A stretch of DNA of 64,000 nucleotides, from assembly GCA_945875845.1 (NCBI GenBank), contig CAMCMB010000004.1, forward strand, positions 1 through 64,000. Direction: 5' to 3'. Numbering within the stretch: the first letter of the stretch is position 1; every line of letters begins with the position of its first letter. Positions 299 to 9,729 of this stretch are shown piece by piece. The translations under genes were made by a program, and so were the position numbers. Origin of the DNA: Pirellula staleyi DSM 6068. Its GTDB lineage: Bacteria; Planctomycetota; Planctomycetia; Pirellulales; Pirellulaceae. The notes beneath the pieces were generated by a model. The model was given only the letters and a program-made list of their open reading frames with translations, was not told where the DNA came from and searched no databases.

Positions 299-1549
299 CT
301 ACCCCTTGATGTCAAAGCACCAAATATCACCTTGATCGCGAATATAAAGCCGACCATTCGAAATGACGGGATGCGTCCAAGCCTTTGCGTTGCCGTGATC
401 CGTTGTACCCGGTGGTGTGCACTTGCCTAACAATTTGTAGCCATCAGGCGATGCTTCGATCATCGCCAGCTCGTTTTTGGTGCTGTGCAAATACAATCGG
501 CCGTCCGCGAAACAGATGGCGGAGGAACCGATTCCGCGATCCTGCCACTTGATGCTTCCTGTCAAATAATCGATGCAAGCCATCGTCTCACCGATGGAAC
601 CAAAGAGATTGCCCTCGATCAAAACGCTTCCACCCATTCCTGCAGGGAGCGACTTTGCAAAGTAGAGCTCTTTCGGCTCGCCTTTGGTTCCCGTCACTTT
701 GACTAACCCACCACCGACGCGACTTGCTGCCGAGTAGACATAGTTTCCGCTCACGATCGGGGTTGCAATATTGGCTTGAGCGTCCGATGTTTTCGTATAC
801 CTCCAAAGCAACTCGCCTGTGTCGGCCTTAAGCCCTACGATACCCTTGCCCAAGTAAAGGATGTACTGTTTCACTCCATCAACGTTGGCAATCACCGGTG
901 ATGCATAGCTAGCAGCATCGGCCTCGGACAACGGCGATTTCCAAACAAGAGCGCCGGTGGATTTTTGGAGAGCGACGACCGTTGCCGACGCACCGCCTGG
1001 AGAGCAAATCAAGACGTCGCCATCAATCAACGGCGATTCCGTGTAAGCCCACATGCCCGGCACACCGCCGAAGTCGCTCTTTAGGTTTTTGCCCCAGGTC
1101 TTTTGGCCCGACTTGATATCGAGGCACACCAGATCTCCATCGGAACCGAGAGCAAAAACAAAACCACCCGACACGGTGGGCGTAGCTCTTGTGCCTGGAT
1201 ACTGCGGTCCTTGATTGGTGCCTACTTTTCCGATGGGTGTTGACCAGAGTTTGTTTCCGTTAGACGTCGAGAGCGCTTGGACTTCTTCTTTTTCGTTTCC
1301 TTGATTAGAAATCACAAAGAGTTGTTCGCCGACAATAGACGGAGTCGAGTAACCGCTGCCGATGTTTTTTGCTTGCCAAAGAAGCTTTGGACCGGCATCG
1401 GGCCATTTCGCCAAAAGACCTTTCTCGGCGGATTTACCATCTCGCTGAGAACCTCGCCACTGAGACCAGTCCTCCGCCATCGCAGCGGAAACAATCATGG
1501 ATAGCGAAACGAAAGCTAAAGCAACTTGTTTTCCGAATGTCCAATTCAC
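299..1549 (-). CDS. Exported PQQ-like beta-propeller repeat protein
   Basis: A 416-residue exported protein. After a hydrophobic signal peptide ending near SAAMA comes the motif DWSQWRGSQRDG, which opens most planctomycete 'PQQ-binding-like' proteins. The rest has repeated blades with W-containing strands (LLWQAKN, KLWSTP, KTWGKN, LVWKSP, LLWRYT, IKWQDR) typical of the BamB/quinoprotein fold. The family binds PQQ in alcohol dehydrogenases, but most planctomycete members have no demonstrated cofactor; here a periplasmic scaffold or sugar-related role is only inferred. I chose the GTG at 1547-1549 because it is preceded by a strong GGGGAG ribosome binding site and immediately precedes the signal peptide. 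A longer reading from 1600 would put a polar 17-residue extension in front. No partner gene is adjacent. A paralogue lies at 14412-15698. Confidence 0.85.
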   Translation of the reverse strand: MNWTFGKQVALAFVSLSMIVSAAMAEDWSQWRGSQRDGKSAEKGLLAKWPDAGPKLLWQAKNIGSGYSTPSIVGEQLFVISNQGNEKEEVQALSTSNGNKLWSTPIGKVGTNQGPQYPGTRATPTVSGGFVFALGSDGDLVCLDIKSGQKTWGKNLKSDFGGVPGMWAYTESPLIDGDVLICSPGGASATVVALQKSTGALVWKSPLSEADAASYASPVIANVDGVKQYILYLGKGIVGLKADTGELLWRYTKTSDAQANIATPIVSGNYVYSAASRVGGGLVKVTGTKGEPKELYFAKSLPAGMGGSVLIEGNLFGSIGETMACIDYLTGSIKWQDRGIGSSAICFADGRLYLHSTKNELAMIEASPDGYKLLGKCTPPGTTDHGNAKAWTHPVISNGRLYIRDQGDIWCFDIKG

Positions 1550-1557
1550 GTTCAAAT

Positions 1558-1563
1558 CTCCCC
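1558..1563 (-). promoter_or_regulatory. Ribosome binding site that sets a GTG start
   Basis: The minus strand reads GGGGAG, eight bases before the GTG at 1549. It supports the GTG over the upstream ATG at 1600 for the beta-propeller gene. Confidence 0.6.
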
Positions 1564-1643
1564 GTGGTGTTGATTTCTCATTGGATGAGTCAATGCTCAA
1601 AGTATACCAGTTTCTGGGGGTGCCGTATGATGACTGAGCCCTT

Positions 1644-1712
1644 AGTTGTACGACGCTCGGCGTCGTAAATCACGACGTCTCAGGAATCACAACGGCAGAG
1701 CGTCGCGCAACT
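1644..1712. repeat. Palindromic repeat, family C (copy 1)
   Basis: The outer arms AGTTGTACGACGCTC and GAGCGTCGCGCAACT are inverted repeats, with an inner ACGACG/CGTCGT hairpin. The same sequence in a cleaner form is at 17231-17283. It fills the gap between two minus-strand genes. Confidence 0.75.
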
Positions 1713-1727
1713 ATTTCAAGGATTCTT

Positions 1728-2303
1728 CTAGAACAATTCGCACAACGCAAGTTCAATCGTTTTGTCCCCGATGGTAGTACGGATAGTTTCCTTGCACGAA
1801 TAAATCCTTAGCGAATCAGGTGCATCATTCAGATAGCATTCTAGATGTTTTTCTTCGAGATTTAAGATCCAGTACTCTTCGACTCCGGCTGAAAGATAGA
1901 TTTCCACTTTGGCCCGATCCTTTTGCAAGGATGAATCGGAAACTTCGACAACCAATCGACAGTCGCTACCAGATGGATGTCGATCACGAAAGTCAGTGAT
2001 ACACCCGCGAACCACTGCCAAATCGGGCTCCGGTTCACTGCGATGAGTCGTGATGGGAAGTTGACACTGACATATCCAACCCGCAGGTACATGATTCTGG
2101 AGCCAATTGGTCAAAAAGCGGACTGCAAATCCATGAGCTGGGCCGTGATTCATTTTTTCTACGATCCATCCTTCTAGAAGCTCGACGCGATCGTCTGGCG
2201 TTAGCACACCCAACTCACCCAACTGATGATACTGGGCGACCGTAAACTTGCGGAGCGACAGTGGAGGAGCAAGTTCCGAATTCAGATTGATTACCGATGA
2301 CAT
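1728..2303 (-). CDS. Uma2-family (DUF820) PD-(D/E)XK nuclease-like protein
   Basis: A 191-residue protein with the Uma2 layout: an N-terminal helix (FTVAQYHQLGELGVL), then DDRVELLEGWIVEKM, a conserved PEPDLAVVRG strand, and LVVEVSDSSLQKDRAKVEIYLSAGVEEYWILNLEEK. The acidic residues of PEPDLAV and the E of VVEVSD plus K of KDRAK match the nuclease-fold core of the family. The biological role of Uma2 proteins is unknown; they are abundant in cyanobacteria and planctomycetes and are often called putative restriction endonucleases. The gene is monocistronic and followed by a palindromic repeat. The family call is firm, the nuclease activity is not shown. Confidence 0.9.
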   Translation of the reverse strand: MSSVINLNSELAPPLSLRKFTVAQYHQLGELGVLTPDDRVELLEGWIVEKMNHGPAHGFAVRFLTNWLQNHVPAGWICQCQLPITTHRSEPEPDLAVVRGCITDFRDRHPSGSDCRLVVEVSDSSLQKDRAKVEIYLSAGVEEYWILNLEEKHLECYLNDAPDSLRIYSCKETIRTTIGDKTIELALCELF

Positions 2304-2632
2304 TAGAACCGACCAAAATGGGGTTGTGCCTTAGACCTTAGACAGAATCCAAGACCCGATCGTACCTTTTTCCATCTTACCTCGCCATCGAATAACGGCC
2401 ACGACAATGAGAGTTTTGCACATGCGAGTCAAAAAGGCACACTTCCGTGTCTCGCTTTCTGGCGTTATGTAGGAGTTTAAAACGACACTAGGGCGAATTC
2501 GAATAATGGAGCCATTTTATTCTAGTTGGCACCCCGATTGCGTATCAGTCGTCCGTTGCGAGAAATTGTCGGCGGAATCCTTCGCAAAGGCAATTTGAAA
2601 CACAGACATGAAACACAGAAAAGGAAAATTGG
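2304..2632. other. Divergent intergenic region
   Basis: This 329-bp gap separates the minus-strand Uma2 gene from the plus-strand cytochrome gene and must carry both promoters. I see no convincing sigma-70 boxes, repeats or RNA structure in it. An AGGAAAA ribosome binding site precedes the ATG at 2633. Confidence 0.5.
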
Positions 2633-3073
2633 ATGAATCGTAAAATTGTTTCTGCGGCAATGGTGATTCCCGCTGCTTTGGTTGTCTCGCTTACTTTCGG
2701 GGCGATGCAGCTCAGTGGGAACCAACAAAAAATCAAGGATGCTTCCAGTTTAGACCCATTCATGCAATTAAAACTCGTGCATTCCAAAGACATTTTGGAG
2801 GGGCTTGCGACAGAAGATTTTGAGATGATCGCGAAGGGGGCGCAGTCGCTCACGGCGTTGAGCCTGGAGAGTAGCTGGAATGTATACACCACTGAAAAAT
2901 ACCTCCAGCAAAGCTCCGATTTTCGACAATCGCTGAAAATTATCAAGGAAGGTGCTTACGAGAAAAATATCGATCGAGCGGCTTTGGGTTATCTCAACAT
3001 GACCGTTCAGTGTCTAGAGTGCCATCGCTACCTGAAATCGGCAAAAACGACCGACAAAGATCTTATCAAGTAG
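2633..3073 (+). CDS. Small exported c-type cytochrome with one CXXCH near the C-terminus
   Basis: A 146-residue protein with a hydrophobic signal or anchor segment at residues 5-25, then a mostly helical body and a single haem-binding motif CLECH at about 127-131, 15 residues from the end. A C-terminal CXXCH after four predicted helices resembles the cytochrome c'/c-556 arrangement, with a Met or other ligand expected near the N-terminal helix. The protein would act in the periplasm, probably as a small electron carrier or gas/redox sensor. It lies 108 bp upstream of a metal-exporting P-type ATPase on the same strand, which may be coincidence. The haem motif is seen; the cytochrome c' fold is inferred. 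Confidence 0.75.
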   Translation: MNRKIVSAAMVIPAALVVSLTFGAMQLSGNQQKIKDASSLDPFMQLKLVHSKDILEGLATEDFEMIAKGAQSLTALSLESSWNVYTTEKYLQQSSDFRQSLKIIKEGAYEKNIDRAALGYLNMTVQCLECHRYLKSAKTTDKDLIK

Positions 3074-3181
3074 AGAGACGACGGAGTCGTCGCATACCCT
3101 TGCCATTTTCGTCGGCATGTGAGATTCTTCTGGATTAAAACGTGTTGACGAAACGCTTTTCATGATTGAGCAAGGAATCCA

Positions 3182-5164
3182 ATGGATTCAAGACGGACCG
3201 ACAGTACTGAATCCGCATCCGAAAAAAGGCCATCGTTCAATGCATCAACGCCACCTGTGGCGAGTGCAGTTGCAACGACCGCCTGCGCAGTGCTTGGCGT
3301 GACGGGTGCCATCTTGCATCAAATGCCGTTTTCGTCCGCTCAGCTTTGGTCGATTACGGCTTGCATGGGTGCCTACGTTGCAGGCGGCTACGGGCCGACA
3401 TTGAATGCGTTTGTTTCTCTCTTAAACAAGAAACTGAACGTTGACTTGTTGATGGTGATCGCAGCCATCGGTGCAGCGATCATCGGCGACTGGATCGAAG
3501 GGGTCGTGTTGCTGTTCTTGTTCTCATTGAGTGGGACACTTGAAGCTTTCGCAATTTTTCGAACCAATCAATCGATCGAATCGCTGGTGCAGCTTCGTCC
3601 TCGTGAAGCGTGGCTGGTGCTAGGTGGGAACAGAGAAGACAAGCGAATCCCGGTTGAGTCGCTTCAGATCGATGACGTGATCCGGATCCGGTCCGGGGAG
3701 CGTTTTTCGGTGGATGGTGTTGTCACGGAAGGAGAAACGTGGGTGGATGAAGCCACGTTGACAGGCGAAAGTGAACTCATTCCTAAGCAGGTTGGCGATA
3801 CGGTGTTTTCTGGAACTATCAATGGGCCGGGGAGCGTACTTGTTCGAATGACCAAAGCCGTCAACGACACCACCTTGGAACGAATTGTTCACATGGTACA
3901 AGAGGCTCAAGCCCAGAAAACTCCAGGCCAGCGATTCGTCGAATCGTGGCAGCAACCTTATGTAATCGGAGTTCTGACGGCCGCAAGTTTGGTTTTCTTT
4001 GGAGCCCGTATCATCCATACTTCGAGCTGGTACGACGCATTCTATCACTCGATGGTATTGCTCGTGGCGGCCTCACCTTGCGCGGTCGTTGTCGGCGCGC
4101 CGGCTGTTTTGCTTTCTGCTATTGCCCGAGCCGGCCGACAGGGTGTGCTTTTTAAGGGTGGCGTGCATCTCGAATCTTTGGGAACGGTCGATACCATCGC
4201 TTTTGACAAAACTGGGACTGTAACGTTAGGTAAACCAAGTGTTACGGAAATTTGGACTCCGGCTGGAATCGATCAAGCGAAATTGCTTGGTTTGGCGGCA
4301 ACGGTAGAACACAAAAGCGAACATCCCCTCGGAATCCCTGTGATGGCAGAAGCTCGATCGCGTCAAATAGCCATTTCCAAGGAGCCCATCGACGACTTTC
4401 ATAGTCACACAGGCTTAGGCATTCACGCTCGTGTAGGTGGAACATGGGTCGGAGTGGGCCGCGAAGGGCTTTTTGCATCGCATGAGATCGGTATACCACA
4501 ATCGATAGTTGAGCAATCGCAACGCATCCGCGAACGAGGCGAAACATCGCTCATGGTGATCACCGATGACCCCTTGCTGTTCGGTGTTATTGCAGTCGCA
4601 GATCAACTTCGGCCTGAATCGACTGCGACCATGGTGACACTGAAGAAACTTGGTATTAAAACTCTTGTTATGCTCACCGGAGATCATGAACGGGTCGCAA
4701 AATCCATAGCCCAAACATTATGTATTGACGAGGTGCGAGCAGGCCTTTTGCCGGATCAAAAGGTGATCGAGATTACTCGGCTTGAGGATCGGGGTTCAAA
4801 TGTCGCGATGGTAGGCGATGGAGTCAACGATGCACCCGCACTTGCCGCTGCTGGAGTTGGAATTGCGATGGGTGGTGCTGGTACGGATGTCGCATTGGAG
4901 GTTGCGGACGTAGTTCTCATGCGAGACGGTTTGAGAGCATTGCCTTTTGCAGTTTGGATCAGTCGCCTCGCACGCAAACGTGTCAGGCAGAATATGATCT
5001 TCGCTTTTGCCATGATCGCCATTCTCGTCATTTCAACGTTTTTTAGTCTTCCATTGTGGCTCGGCGTGCTCGGTCACGAGGGGAGCACTGTGCTTGTCGT
5101 ATTTAATGGCCTTAGGATTCTTTGGATGAAAACGCCGGATTTTGCCAAGATTGGACGTGAATGA
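3182..5164 (+). CDS. Heavy-metal translocating P-type ATPase, P1B-4 type
   Basis: A 660-residue metal exporter of the inner membrane. The actuator motif TGES is at about residue 197, the phosphorylation motif DKTGT near 342, the HP motif in SEHPLG and the hinge GDGVNDAPA. The transport-site motifs are SPC in membrane helix 6 (ASPCAVVV, near 297) and HEGST in helix 8 (near 632). SPC plus HEGGT-like is the signature of P1B-4 pumps (CoaT, CtpD, PfeT), which export Co, Fe(II) or Zn, whereas Cu pumps have CPC and Zn/Cd/Pb pumps have CPC plus a helix-8 Asp. There is no N-terminal metal-binding domain, also usual for P1B-4. AAGGAA precedes the ATG. No regulator gene is adjacent. Confidence 0.9.
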   Translation: MDSRRTDSTESASEKRPSFNASTPPVASAVATTACAVLGVTGAILHQMPFSSAQLWSITACMGAYVAGGYGPTLNAFVSLLNKKLNVDLLMVIAAIGAAIIGDWIEGVVLLFLFSLSGTLEAFAIFRTNQSIESLVQLRPREAWLVLGGNREDKRIPVESLQIDDVIRIRSGERFSVDGVVTEGETWVDEATLTGESELIPKQVGDTVFSGTINGPGSVLVRMTKAVNDTTLERIVHMVQEAQAQKTPGQRFVESWQQPYVIGVLTAASLVFFGARIIHTSSWYDAFYHSMVLLVAASPCAVVVGAPAVLLSAIARAGRQGVLFKGGVHLESLGTVDTIAFDKTGTVTLGKPSVTEIWTPAGIDQAKLLGLAATVEHKSEHPLGIPVMAEARSRQIAISKEPIDDFHSHTGLGIHARVGGTWVGVGREGLFASHEIGIPQSIVEQSQRIRERGETSLMVITDDPLLFGVIAVADQLRPESTATMVTLKKLGIKTLVMLTGDHERVAKSIAQTLCIDEVRAGLLPDQKVIEITRLEDRGSNVAMVGDGVNDAPALAAAGVGIAMGGAGTDVALEVADVVLMRDGLRALPFAVWISRLARKRVRQNMIFAFAMIAILVISTFFSLPLWLGVLGHEGSTVLVVFNGLRILWMKTPDFAKIGRE

Positions 5165-5182
5165 GCCCAACCCCCATGATGG

Positions 5183-5299
5183 GCTAGCCACAAAAAAACA
5201 CAAAGGGCACAAAATAGAACCAGTTTAAAGGTACAAAGCTCGGAAACCAAATCGATTTACTTTCTCCCTTTTGTGAACTCTGTGCTATTTGGTGGCTAG
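5183..5299. repeat. Inverted repeat flanking the GxxExxY gene on its 5' side
   Basis: 5183-5217 reads GCTAGCCACAAAAAAACACA and onward, the reverse complement of the type at 5269-5299 (TTTTGTGAACTCTGTGCTAT then TTGGTGGCTAG). The right arm runs directly into the ATG of the gene. Direct copies of the right-arm sequence follow the gene. Confidence 0.75.
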
Positions 5300-5301
5300 A
5301 A

Positions 5302-5718
5302 ATGACCGAACCCCATTCTCAATTCATTCGTCCACGATCCGACTTGCCTGATTCAGACGTCAATAAAATCTGTGATGTAATTCGTGAGGCAGGCTTTGGG
5401 TTGCATAAGTATCTTGGACCTGGATTCAGGGAGAAAGTTTATGAACGCGGCATGGTTCATCGACTTAGGAAAGCGGGTCTTTTGGTCAGAGTGCAGCCAT
5501 CCGTGATGATTTATGACGAGGATGGAACAGAACTCATCGAGGAGACGATGGATGTTATTGTTGAGGACGTTTTGATACTCGAACTAAAAGCGGTACGCGA
5601 AACGTCCGACGCAGATATCGCGCAGTTATTGGGATACCTCAAGGCAACTAAGTTTCGTCACGGGCTTCTCGTCAACTTTGGAGCCCCCAAGTTTTATATC
5701 AAGAAATACGTCCTTTAA
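5302..5718 (+). CDS. GxxExxY protein
   Basis: A 138-residue protein with the family hallmark GFREKVYE (G-x-x-E-x-x-Y) near residues 40-47, preceded by the helix GFGLHKYLGP and followed by the strand MDVIVEDVLILELKAV, where E-L-K forms the likely PD-(D/E)XK catalytic half. The C-terminal part (QLLGYLKATKFRHGLLVNFGAPK) is also typical. The family is widespread and often multicopy in planctomycetes and related bacteria; no function has been proved. It is tightly flanked on both sides by copies of one repeat, which suggests gene and repeats travel together. Confidence 0.9.
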   Translation: MTEPHSQFIRPRSDLPDSDVNKICDVIREAGFGLHKYLGPGFREKVYERGMVHRLRKAGLLVRVQPSVMIYDEDGTELIEETMDVIVEDVLILELKAVRETSDADIAQLLGYLKATKFRHGLLVNFGAPKFYIKKYVL

Positions 5719-5720
5719 AT

Positions 5721-5934
5721 CAATTTTTGTGATCTATGTGCCTTTTTGTGGCTAGCCCTAAATGACCGCCAACCTCCACGCCGCCCCGCAGAGGATTTCG
5801 AAGCCACGAAAAGCCACAAAAAACACAAGAAGTGAGGGTACTACTACATGACATGTTGTGTTTCTTGTGCGTAGCACGGGCGTAAACCAATTTTTGTGAT
5901 CTATGTGCTTTTTGGTGGCTAGCCCTAAATGACC
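5721..5934. repeat. Direct and inverted repeats 3' of the GxxExxY gene
   Basis: Two near-identical 47-bp copies, 5721-5767 and 5888-5934, each read AATTTTTGTGATCTATGTGC then TTTTTGTGGCTAGCCCTAAATGACC with small changes. An inverted A-rich partner (GCCACGAAAAGCCACAAAAA) lies between them around 5802-5826. The same sequence in weaker form precedes the gene at 5269-5299. The second copy ends on the stop codon of the aminotransferase. Confidence 0.8.
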
Positions 5935-7157
5935 TAAGCCTTTTGAAGCTCGGGCGTACTCTTGCGATCCAGGCAAGCGCCGATTTGACGGACGGCTTGC
6001 CTCAATCTCGATTCGTTTTCGACCAGCGACATGCGCAGGTAGCCTTCGCCTACTGGACCAAAGCCAGCACCAGGACTGACAGCCACGTTGCCGTGCTCCA
6101 GCAAATGCATCGCGAAGTCGACCGAGTTCATTTGCGATGCCCATGGCTCCGGGATCTTGGCCCAAACGAACATGCCCGCTTTCGGAACCGTCGCCGTCCA
6201 ACCCAATCGGCGAAGTCCGTCGATTAGGACATCGCGGCGGCCTTGATAGATCATCGATTGTTTTTCCACGGTGGCTTCGGTGTCGCGCAACGCAACAATC
6301 GCGGCAATCTGGATCGCTTGGAACATGCCGTAATCGTAGTAGCCCTTGATCGTCGCAAGCCCTTTGATCATGTCGGCATTGCCCGAACAGAATCCGACAC
6401 GCCAGCCTGCCATGTTGTAGCCCTTGCTCATCGTGGTGAACTCTACGCCCACGTCTTTGGCGCCAGGAGCGGATAGAAACGAAGGGGGGACATAACCATC
6501 GTATGCGACATCCGCGTACGCGAAGTCGCTGATTACCATCAGTCCATAGCGTTTAGCAAGCTTAACCACGTCGACAAAGAACTCCGGCTCCACGGTCACC
6601 GAGGAAGGGTTGTGTGGATAGTTAATGATGAGAAGCTTGGGCCGAGGATAAAAATGCTCGCAAGTGTAAGCGATGTTCGACAGATACTTTTCCGTATCCG
6701 ACACATCCAATGCCACCACATTCCCAGAAGCGAGCACGACCGCAAACATGTGGGCGGGGAAGTATGGGGCTGGAATGATGGCCGTATCGCCCGCTCCCAT
6801 GAGAGCCAAGCACATATGCGAAAATCCCTCTTTGGATCCCAAACAAACGATGGTTTCGGTTTCCGGATCCAACCGAACGCCATACTTGCGAAGGTATTTA
6901 CTGGTTAACTCTCGGCGAAGATTGAGGATTCCGTTGGCTTTGGAATAACCATGGTTGCCCAGATCGCTGGCCGCTTCGGAGAGCTTTGCTATGACTTGGG
7001 GATCCGGCGGGTCGGATGGATTTCCCATCCCCATATCGATCACGTCCTGACCCGCTCGCCTTTTTTGGTAGAGCAAGGCATTGATACGCCCAAAAAGGTA
7101 AGGGGGGAGGCGGTGGACTCGAGGAGCCCACTCCACTTTGAAGTTGCTATTAGTCAT
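5934..7157 (-). CDS. PLP-dependent aminotransferase class I/II, AlaC / DapL-like
   Basis: A 407-residue fold-type I aminotransferase. The N-terminus ([16 protein letters not shown]...[16 protein letters not shown]) is characteristic of the group containing glutamate-pyruvate aminotransferase AlaC and LL-diaminopimelate aminotransferases. The PLP-binding lysine is in [13 protein letters not shown] near residue 242, with the substrate-carboxylate arginine in the C-terminal [15 protein letters not shown]. Likely donors are glutamate/alanine or LL-diaminopimelate; the sequence alone does not separate them. It is cytosolic and appears to be a single-gene unit, with the repeat nest on its 3' side and a 215-bp gap to the divergent SEFIR gene. 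Confidence 0.88.
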
Positions 7158-7372
7158 AAGGATTGCACAGATTCAACGCAAACGTGTTTTTTACTGGACC
7201 GAGATCGACTCGCTTAACAGATAGGATACGGGAGTAATGGGTTCGAATAAAGGACACTTCTGGCTGGTTGCACGCATCGACGACCCAAAGTCGTACTCAA
7301 TGAAATGGTACCCCGCAAATCAACCCCGCGCTGCCAAAATCTAACCCCGGTCATGGAGGGCGCTTACAAATA

Positions 7373-8701
7373 TTGAGAGTGACATACTGGTCAACTAGGA
7401 ATAATTGCGATCAAATCCGAGGTGGTAGCGTGCCAAGACCATTGGTGTCACAATCTGTTCTGTTGAGTAAATTAACACCTGGATTTTTTCGCGATTGGGC
7501 AGTAGCGTTGTTGCAGAATGTTTTCATAAGCTATTGCCAAGAGAGCCCAGAACATACCCGCGCGGTTCGTCTCCTGGGCGAATTGCTTCGCCGATCAGGT
7601 CTACCGGTCGAGTTGGATCAATTTTATTTGGAACAGAATCCTGGTGGCCCAGACGAAGGTGGTTGGCCGAAGTGGTGCGCAGATCGGGCGGAAAAGTCCG
7701 CCTGCGTGCTTGTGATTCCGTCTGCGGGCTGGTTTGCAGCCTATGAAGGCACCACCATTGCTCGAGGAGGTTACGGTGTAGCAACGGAAGCCGCACTCTT
7801 TCGACAATATTTGTACAACGAAAAACAAGTCAATTCACGGATACGTTTGTCCTTCGTCGATTCGCCATCGGCGAAGGTCGTTCCCCTGGCGCTACAAGCT
7901 TGGCATCAGTTCCATCCACTGACCTCGAGTCCTGATCTGGACAGGCTCGTCGCGTGGATTGCCGGCGTATTGAATTTGAAAGGCATTCAGTCGCCGACCG
8001 TTAGTTGGCCCGAGCCTTTGGATAGCTTTCAGCCCGACCTCGCCAACCGCCACATCCACGAGTGGCCAGCCATCTTGGACCTCCTCGCTGGACGCGGACC
8101 GCATCGGATCCTCATGATCAAGGGGGAAAGCGGGTTTGGGAAATCGGAACTTGTCCACCAAACGACCAAATACGCTACCGATCTCGGAATTCCAGTGGCC
8201 CGACTTGATTTCAAGGCGTCCTATGAGAACGAGACTGGACTACTTGGCCAAATCGACCTTGAACTGGGCGCGCACTTGCCTAATTTCACCCGTGAGGGGG
8301 GCATCAAAAACCACTTACTACTCAAAGACCTTCGCGCCCTGCGCCGTCCCGTTTTGGTCATTGTCGACAGTTATGAAAAGGCAGGGGCGCTGGTCGACTG
8401 GGTCTGTTCGCACTTGTTGCCAGAAGTTGAGAAGTCGTTGGGCTTGGCGGTGCTCGTCGCCGGTACAAGTTGCCCGGACGCAGATGACATTCGATGGCGG
8501 AACGTTGCTCGCCACCTGCCGCTAGGACCTATATCCGATGCCGCCCATTGGGAGCCTTGGTTGGAGCGCCGTTATCCCAATTTTCGGGACCGCAAGATCG
8601 ATGTTCAAACACTTGTCCTTGCAACGCAGGGCGTCCCAAAAACCTTTGCCGAAATGTGCAGAGCGATCGATGGTTCCTTGCGATCAGGAACTACATCATG
8701 A
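7373..8701 (+). CDS. SEFIR-domain STAND NTPase, N-terminal half of a split NLR-like protein
   Basis: A 442-residue protein. Residues about 49-180 start with NVFISYCQESPEHTRAVRLL, the first strand and helix of SEFIR/TIR domains. After a linker comes an NTPase domain with Walker A GESGFGKSE near 251-258, Walker B PVLVIVDSYE near 326 and a GLPL-like motif TQGVPKTFAEMCRA close to the end. This is the order of NLR/STAND proteins, but the protein stops before the winged helix, which is encoded by the next gene (ATGA overlap). The start is uncertain: a TTG at 7373 has GGAGGG 12 bp upstream, while TTG at 7508 or 7511 would begin the protein right at the SEFIR domain. SEFIR-STAND proteins occur in bacterial immunity; that role is inferred here. 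Confidence 0.75.
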   Translation: MRVTYWSTRNNCDQIRGGSVPRPLVSQSVLLSKLTPGFFRDWAVALLQNVFISYCQESPEHTRAVRLLGELLRRSGLPVELDQFYLEQNPGGPDEGGWPKWCADRAEKSACVLVIPSAGWFAAYEGTTIARGGYGVATEAALFRQYLYNEKQVNSRIRLSFVDSPSAKVVPLALQAWHQFHPLTSSPDLDRLVAWIAGVLNLKGIQSPTVSWPEPLDSFQPDLANRHIHEWPAILDLLAGRGPHRILMIKGESGFGKSELVHQTTKYATDLGIPVARLDFKASYENETGLLGQIDLELGAHLPNFTREGGIKNHLLLKDLRALRRPVLVIVDSYEKAGALVDWVCSHLLPEVEKSLGLAVLVAGTSCPDADDIRWRNVARHLPLGPISDAAHWEPWLERRYPNFRDRKIDVQTLVLATQGVPKTFAEMCRAIDGSLRSGTTS

Positions 8702-9729
8702 CCACATTTGACGACATACTCCGTAAACTTCAGGATGCCAAGGGGGACGTACGCGCTCAAGCAGTTATTACGGCGGACTTTGCGCTCTCTGTGCAGTCCC
8801 CTCAAGACAGAGACAAATTAACGTACACTCTTGACGCTGCGGCGGTGCTCCACTGGTTCGATCTACCGATAATGACCCATATGTTGCAAGTGGATGAGTC
8901 CGAGGCTCGCCGACTCTTGGAATTACTATGTCACTTCCCTTTCGTTGAGTCGTTTCCTCTTCGAGGCAAAAACGCGAGCAATATACACGATGCGACACGA
9001 TTCGGCTGGCGTGCGCGACTTGCCCGTGAGCAACCCAACCTTTGGCGACAATTGTCTGCCCAAGCTGCCGAATGGTTCGCAGGTCGCGACGAAATTTCAT
9101 CGCGGATCGAATACGCTTACCACCTACTCTGCGCCGATCCAATCCGCGGCGCACGACATCTCGAAGAATTAGATCGGCATTGGTCCGGTTCAGCTCACCC
9201 TGAACATCGTCAGTCGCTGGCGCAGGCCCTTTGGGAATTGGAGACACATGGCTTGGTTGAGGGCGTTGCGAGGCTCGAGGTACTTGTCTGTGCTGGCGAG
9301 TCTCGCTCCGCTCGCGGTGAAACGGCCCAACTCGGCGATTTAGCAAGTCGCTCGGTAGCCCTTGCTCGAACGCTAGATCATCCCTCCGGATTGGCGCGGG
9401 CATGGTGTCTCCATGGGGACGTGCTTCAATCGCAGGGCAAGCTGGAGGGGGCGCGGGCAGCGTTTGACGAGGTTCTAACGATCAGCCGTCGACTTGCGGA
9501 ACAGGATCCGAGCAACGCGGGTTGGCAGCGTGGCTTGGCGCTGGCGATTCACAGGACAGCAAGAATGGCAAGCAGTTCAGGTGCGCACAAAAGGGCGGCT
9601 GAACTTTTGAGTGAAGCAAATCAAATCTTCGAACGATTGGTTGAAAAATCGCCGGAACAAGTCGTTTGGAAAACAGAACTAGAGCAGATCTCCAAAGAGC
9701 TTTTCGCGATAGTGAGTCACCTTCAATAA
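8698..9729 (+). CDS. Winged-helix and TPR-like protein, C-terminal half of a split NLR-like protein
   Basis: A 343-residue protein starting at the ATG whose last bases form the stop of the previous gene (ATGA), so translation is likely coupled. Residues about 35-125 (DAAAVLHWFDLPIMTHMLQV, then EARRLLELLCHFPFVESF and RARLAREQPNLWRQLSAQAAEWF) match the winged helix that follows the NTPase in STAND proteins. The remainder is all-helical with TPR-like repeats, e.g. ARAWCLHGDVLQSQGKLEGA and the next helix. The frame stays open back to 8494, but that extension is Cys/Pro/Arg-rich and overlaps the first gene. Together the two genes would make one SEFIR-NTPase-WH-TPR receptor. The TPR half would be the ligand-sensing part. 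Confidence 0.7.
   Translation: MTTFDDILRKLQDAKGDVRAQAVITADFALSVQSPQDRDKLTYTLDAAAVLHWFDLPIMTHMLQVDESEARRLLELLCHFPFVESFPLRGKNASNIHDATRFGWRARLAREQPNLWRQLSAQAAEWFAGRDEISSRIEYAYHLLCADPIRGARHLEELDRHWSGSAHPEHRQSLAQALWELETHGLVEGVARLEVLVCAGESRSARGETAQLGDLASRSVALARTLDHPSGLARAWCLHGDVLQSQGKLEGARAAFDEVLTISRRLAEQDPSNAGWQRGLALAIHRTARMASSSGAHKRAAELLSEANQIFERLVEKSPEQVVWKTELEQISKELFAIVSHLQ

Follow-up and report, generated by a model that had tools for sequence, protein, structure and literature searches.

We identified two overlapping genes in a 64,000-nucleotide stretch of Pirellula staleyi DSM 6068 (GenBank assembly GCA_945875845.1, contig CAMCMB010000004.1, positions 1 to 64,000; hereafter the window) that divide the domains of a putative NLR-like (STAND) receptor between two proteins. 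The first (chain 1) carries a SEFIR domain and a P-loop NTPase, and the second (chain 2) carries a winged helix, placed through the fold model of a relative, and TPRs. In all six pairs found (the window and loci L009, L010, L015, L016 and L025), the receptor is cut at the NTPase/winged-helix border, as an earlier note made from the letters of the window alone had proposed. On balance, we favour a two-subunit receptor in which an ADP/ATP switch would be assembled from both chains, with NAD+ loss through SEFIR as its likely output.

The SEFIR-like start described in that note is borne out by the PADLOC bSEFIR model (E=9.3e-11, residues 49-203), with Pfam PF08357 slightly below its cut-off of 23 (21.6 bits, E=2.9e-4, residues 49-181). 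The glutamate of 'GVATEAAL' in this domain is common to both other aligned SEFIR domains. The true start of chain 1 is uncertain, with in-frame TTG codons at 7508 and 7511 just ahead of the domain. The NTPase that the note had recognized by its Walker motifs is supported by sub-cut-off Pfam matches to AAA_16 (E=8.4e-4) and AAA_22 (E=1.6e-3), and the patterns Gx4GK[ST] and hhhhD are found in all five aligned chain 1 sequences. The GLPL-like motif before the stop of gene 1 is only partly conserved: GxP is found there in three of the five aligned pairs (window, L009 and L010) and is absent in L015 and L016. A Pfam scan revealed no evident sensor domain in chain 1, and the fold model of window chain 1 was not usable.

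Chain 2 matches the TPR_12 profile (Pfam, E=1.3e-7, residues 232-304), and by a signature pattern the number of TPR units is two for the window, one of them degenerate, three for L015 and six for L016. No P-loop NTPase was matched by Pfam in window chain 2, and no sequence profile matched its winged helix. The fold of L009 was modelled with medium confidence; its chain 2 begins with a region that falls on winged-helix domains of STAND/NLR proteins, and by this model a winged helix follows the NTPase. Searching Foldseek with the joined model yielded no hits at E<=0.001. The note's description of gene 2 as a winged helix followed by TPRs is supported by profile for the TPRs and only via the relative's model for the winged helix. 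The window's NIHDATR motif is one we take to be MHD-like.

STAND/NLR proteins are ordered as NTPase, HD1, winged helix and then a helical, TPR or other sensor. Read in succession, the two chains have the same order as single-chain members (MalT, Apaf-1, CED-4, plant TIR-NLRs such as RPP1, and bacterial Avs), with the Walker A and B motifs, the modelled winged helix, the presumed MHD-like motif and a repeat sensor all present. These proteins are one polypeptide, whereas all six pairs are split between HD1 and the winged helix.

The overlap of the two genes at ATGA was confirmed at 8698-8701. ATGA overlaps are frequent in bacteria, so this overlap alone proves little, and its conservation, which the earlier note had put up for checking, is partial: start-to-stop spacing is -4 nt in the window, L010 and L025, 0 in L009, +1 in L016 and +4 in L015. 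The junctions cover all three relative frames, and each chain 2 has its own ATG or GTG start. What all pairs share is the domain border, and a cut at one border in six of six exceeds chance. Its position is aligned in five pairs; L025 was placed by the alignment of its chain 2 start (17% identity with window chain 2) and by a chain 1 ending in an AAA-type NTPase. Neither a promoter-like site 5' of gene 1 nor a terminator-like site 3' of gene 2 was found on the + strand.

In both comparisons made, purifying selection acts on chain 1 and chain 2 alike, and each is thus kept as a protein. Nonsynonymous (dN) and synonymous (dS) divergence between L015 and L016 is dN 0.197/dS 0.711 for chain 1 and dN 0.266/dS 1.129 for chain 2; between L009 and L010, it is dN 0.186/dS 1.303 and dN 0.226/dS 1.095, respectively.

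The relatives share the cut while exchanging the effector part, and the cut therefore looks built in rather than erroneous. A search of 392 phylum genomes with window chain 1 (P0001) found a match to the NTPase part in only one other genome, G382. On its contig (L009), the NTPase chain P0003 ends in TGA, and the ATG of a second chain, P0004, follows directly (single comparisons: P0003 with window chain 1, E=3e-16; P0004 with window chain 2, E=3e-14). Later searches added L010, L015, L016 and the more distant L025 (E=4.7e-5). The contig of L010 ends within chain 2, and in L025 chain 2 extends past the fetched stretch. L009 and L010 are short contigs of metagenome-assembled genomes named Ca. Brocadia and Paraglaciecola; mis-binning is possible, and we do not claim these hosts. 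For L009, this caution comes from the genes on L006 (equal in length to L009, 5,985 bases, and taken as the same contig), among them what we take to be a TonB-associated carboxypeptidase-like gene, presumably unusual for the named host.

The N-terminus of chain 1 is SEFIR in the window, TIR in L015 and L016 (above the Pfam cut-off) and CHAT in L025 (2e-14). In L009 and L010, chain 1 has no fused effector, and a 104-residue protein, by eye a membrane protein, is encoded directly upstream. This protein carries IHQxGDRDEIQI and IKQKGxDNKINI repeats. The second, which recurs within the NTPase chain, is possibly an amyloid-signalling motif. The score of the IKQKGxxNxI stretch between membrane protein and NTPase chain was reached by 0 of 500 shuffles for L009 and 21 of 500 for L010, so that a common motif is supported in L009 but not in L010 and is suggestive only; the best alignment to window chain 1 was no better than shuffles (99/500). 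By eye, the stretch resembles motifs of the RHIM and BASS3 amyloid families, as named in the available parts of the sources (PMC8086366, PMC12261475). The likeness to BASS, the NLR-associated amyloid motif systems, lies in this shared stretch, assigned by eye, and is limited to L009 and L010.

Profile searches, within one phylum, found no single-chain homologue of the pair. Their genome sets overlap, as do those of the protein searches; other collections were scanned by short patterns or tblastn, so that absence elsewhere is weakly tested. P0001 matched three of 392 genomes (window, G382 and, in the SEFIR part only, G203). A two-row winged-helix profile (A1) matched the window alone among 382 genomes, a set that may lack G382. 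Profile A4 matched four of 149 family genomes (window, G428, G489 and G484, the last by eye an ABC-transporter ATPase), and A7 matched four of 392 (window, G382, G100 and G353, the last by eye a sigma-factor gene). Among four genomes of G489's genus, A7 matched G489 and a decayed copy in G400. This copy, with TIR-NTPase and winged-helix remnants, lies at L026 3867-4828 (+), and was not among the A8 matches in 241 family genomes (window, G489, G428 and G353); a second G489 place matched by A8 is by eye an unrelated repeat protein. Among 12 genomes of G100's family, A8 matched only G100 itself. The joined-chain profile A12 matched three of 294 genomes: the window, in two pieces, and by eye a sigma-54-type activator and a MoxR-type ATPase. 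In 33 genomes of G382's family, it matched G382, across one TGA, and G624, as a P-loop match.

With P0001, scans of genome contigs produced 19 pattern matches, none of them a relative; with A3, they produced 84, two of which (L009 and L010) are relatives. No relative was found in viral contigs, nor in phages, searched with P0001 only. In plasmids, P0001 matched one record in the SEFIR part only, P0005 matched seven in the TIR part only (no pair in the three inspected), and P0002, L009 chain 1 and the L010 winged helix matched none. The earlier note had named in advance a split unique to one strain, with single-chain homologues, as the outcome that would mark an error; the split recurs in relatives, and no such homologue was seen in the one phylum searched by profile.

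An old fission of a single-chain gene, with products that stay bound and act as one chain, would give the same receptor split without a mechanism of its own. We regard this as possible, though doubtful. The fold order equals that of single-chain STAND proteins, and tight gene packing could yield near-equal amounts of the two products. Against it, the cut has survived divergence and effector exchange in all six pairs, and one might expect fusion to undo a neutral fission occasionally, of which the searches show no sign.

The genomic setting bears on whether the pair functions in defence at all. The pair is rare (3/241 family genomes). In two close relatives, G563 and G553, the aminotransferase beside the site is 98 and 99% identical to that of the window, and the main flanking blocks are 90-95.5% identical. 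Both carry another operon of ~7.6 kb at the site, with matching gene order and direction. Genes of this operon and its flanks presumably encode DUF1501, DUF1553, a sigma factor and a FecR-like protein. Of three close relatives compared, L041 and L042 show both flanks; the third, G557 (L043), shares the aminotransferase only and is uninformative on the site. The pair has a GC fraction of 0.544, and the window as a whole one of 0.518. Among six neighbouring proteins screened with PADLOC, we found no defence island and no clear defence match (five had none, and one had a weak, partial match), as might be expected of a regulator of a non-defence process, such as signalling or development, built from the same parts. 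The SEFIR, TIR and CHAT effectors, the sporadic occurrence and the alternative occupant of the site make such a regulator unlikely.

Slightly less likely still is a toxin-antitoxin-like pair, in which chain 1 would be a SEFIR/TIR NTPase active by itself, inhibited by a separable chain 2 that infection would cause to be lost or degraded. The effector chain does come first with the second chain close behind, and a separate winged-helix chain could be an inhibitor only; yet chain 2 retains a sensor-like TPR array of variable length, and chain 1 has no other evident sensor. A frameshift, sequencing error or programmed frameshift normally yielding one long protein is very improbable and, as a frameshift or error, ruled out by the six different junctions. 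Its one point in favour is L009, the only pair in which the chains are divided by a single in-frame TGA. Against it, assembly errors would not fall six times on the same border, the differing relative frames leave no room for one programmed frameshift common to the pairs, and selection maintains both chains in the comparisons made.

The two-subunit receptor that we favour suggests the following mechanism. Winged-helix histidines of NLRs contact ADP. Chain 1 would supply the effector together with the nucleotide-binding and HD1 parts of the switch, and chain 2 the winged-helix part, acting as a lock, and the TPR sensor. Both would be made by coupled translation from one mRNA and then pair, the winged helix capping ADP held by chain 1, by analogy probably via the histidine of NIHD. 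A trigger on the TPRs, perhaps from a phage if the pair serves in defence, would move or release chain 2; chain 1 could then take up ATP and oligomerize, and clustered SEFIR domains would destroy NAD+ and stop the cell. SEFIR is named among NAD+-depleting bacterial systems in the available part of one source (PMC11559045).

Comparison with known systems identifies the pair as a variant of a known NLR-like design, made as two separate proteins with Walker motifs on chain 1 only. It shares an N-terminal SEFIR with bSEFIR (PADLOC PDLC03957) but does not match the full model, covering only positions 40-187 of 412; unlike bSEFIR, the window SEFIR is fused to a STAND-type NTPase that is followed by a second chain. 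Avs models in PADLOC and NCBIfam gave no match to P0001 or P0002 up to E=1, and NF041815 matched L009 chain 1 only (10 bits, E=0.086).

The CARD-NLR system LypA/LypB (Caulobacter, after L. enzymogenes) is a partial precedent. The available text describes two interacting proteins, LypA with an effector part and a C-terminal ATPase and LypB with TPR, exchangeable killing parts and occurrence in ~0.35% of genomes (PMC13236601). The pairs resemble it in having two proteins, exchangeable killing parts, an effector part with an ATPase in the first protein, TPR in the second and rarity. LypB is described as having its own N-terminal domain and ATPase, and the LypA ATPase as being without Walker residues (PMC13236601), whereas window chain 1 has Walker motifs and chain 2 has no NTPase. 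The contact shown there joins the LypA CARD to the LypB N-terminal domain (PMC13236601), not an ATPase to a winged helix. Pfam and NCBIfam profiles matched neither a trypsin-like peptidase, as in the first CARD-NLR protein, nor a CARD in window chain 1; bacterial CARDs may escape these profiles.

L025 (1-6194, -) encodes a CHAT-NTPase and then, after an ATGA overlap, a winged helix, a second P-loop NTPase and repeats. With this ATPase in the second protein, L025 looks closer than the window to the CARD-NLR plan as described in the available text, and is possibly a link between the two.

The literature searched on split or two-gene STAND/NLR systems (including the available parts of PMC7159879, PMC8195603, PMC13174449 and PMC12931631, with most subscription papers outside the search) does not describe this architecture. 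The earlier note's remark that no two-gene SEFIR-STAND system is known to be described went uncontradicted, with LypA/LypB in print on a related plan (PMC13236601).

More tentatively, the pairs may represent an old class of two-subunit NLR-like receptors, with the nucleotide switch formed between two proteins and activated by binding or release of the lock chain. The cut would let effectors (SEFIR, TIR, CHAT and membrane/amyloid type) and sensors swap as genes or gene halves. NLR activation is usually described as a within-chain rearrangement. If the proposal is correct, a natural NTPase/winged-helix cut would allow the lock to be added or removed in vitro, make directly testable whether the winged helix pivots or leaves on activation, and provide a handle for further two-gene NLR-like systems overlooked by single-protein models.

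Table 1. Positions of the gene pair, its domains and motifs, and features of related loci (window coordinates unless a locus is named).
Feature	Position	Strand	Basis or remark
Chain 1, SEFIR + STAND-type P-loop NTPase	7373..8701	+	TTG-started open reading frame, 442 aa from first TTG
SEFIR domain, residues 49-181	7517..7915	+	Pfam and PADLOC matches
Walker A, GESGFGKS	8123..8146	+	Direct reading
Walker B, VLVIVDSYE	8351..8377	+	Direct reading
TQGVPKTF, GxP-like motif near chain 1 C-terminus	8624..8647	+	Direct reading
ATGA start/stop overlap at NTPase/winged-helix border	8698..8701	+	Direct sequence
Chain 2, winged helix + helical region + TPR	8698..9729	+	ATG-started open reading frame, 343 aa
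Winged-helix domain of chain 2, putative (approximate)	8809..9000	+	Alignment transfer from L009 fold model
NIHDATR, putative MHD-like motif	8980..9000	+	N-[IV]-H-[DE]-x-x-R in 5/6 pairs
TPR region, two 48-residue units (one clear, one degenerate)	9391..9609	+	TPR_12 and signature pattern
Small protein, 104 aa, hydrophobic N-terminus, upstream of NTPase chain	L006 3288-3602	-	
Small protein, 104 aa, hydrophobic N-terminus, upstream of NTPase chain	L010 1439-1753	+	
Other operon at pair site	L041 about 1300-8970; L042 about 1800-9450		Same direction after turning L041 round

SEFIR domains were also identified in two single-chain proteins. Another genome of the phylum encodes a 478-residue SEFIR-NTPase protein (L003 1438-2874, +) that matches the window in its SEFIR part only; by eye, the tail may include a short winged helix but no TPR, and the adjoining gene is presumably patatin-like. 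The window's own genome encodes, on contig C53, a protein whose SEFIR domain is C-terminal and whose long N-terminal part we take to be SIR2-like (L002 1-2286, +).
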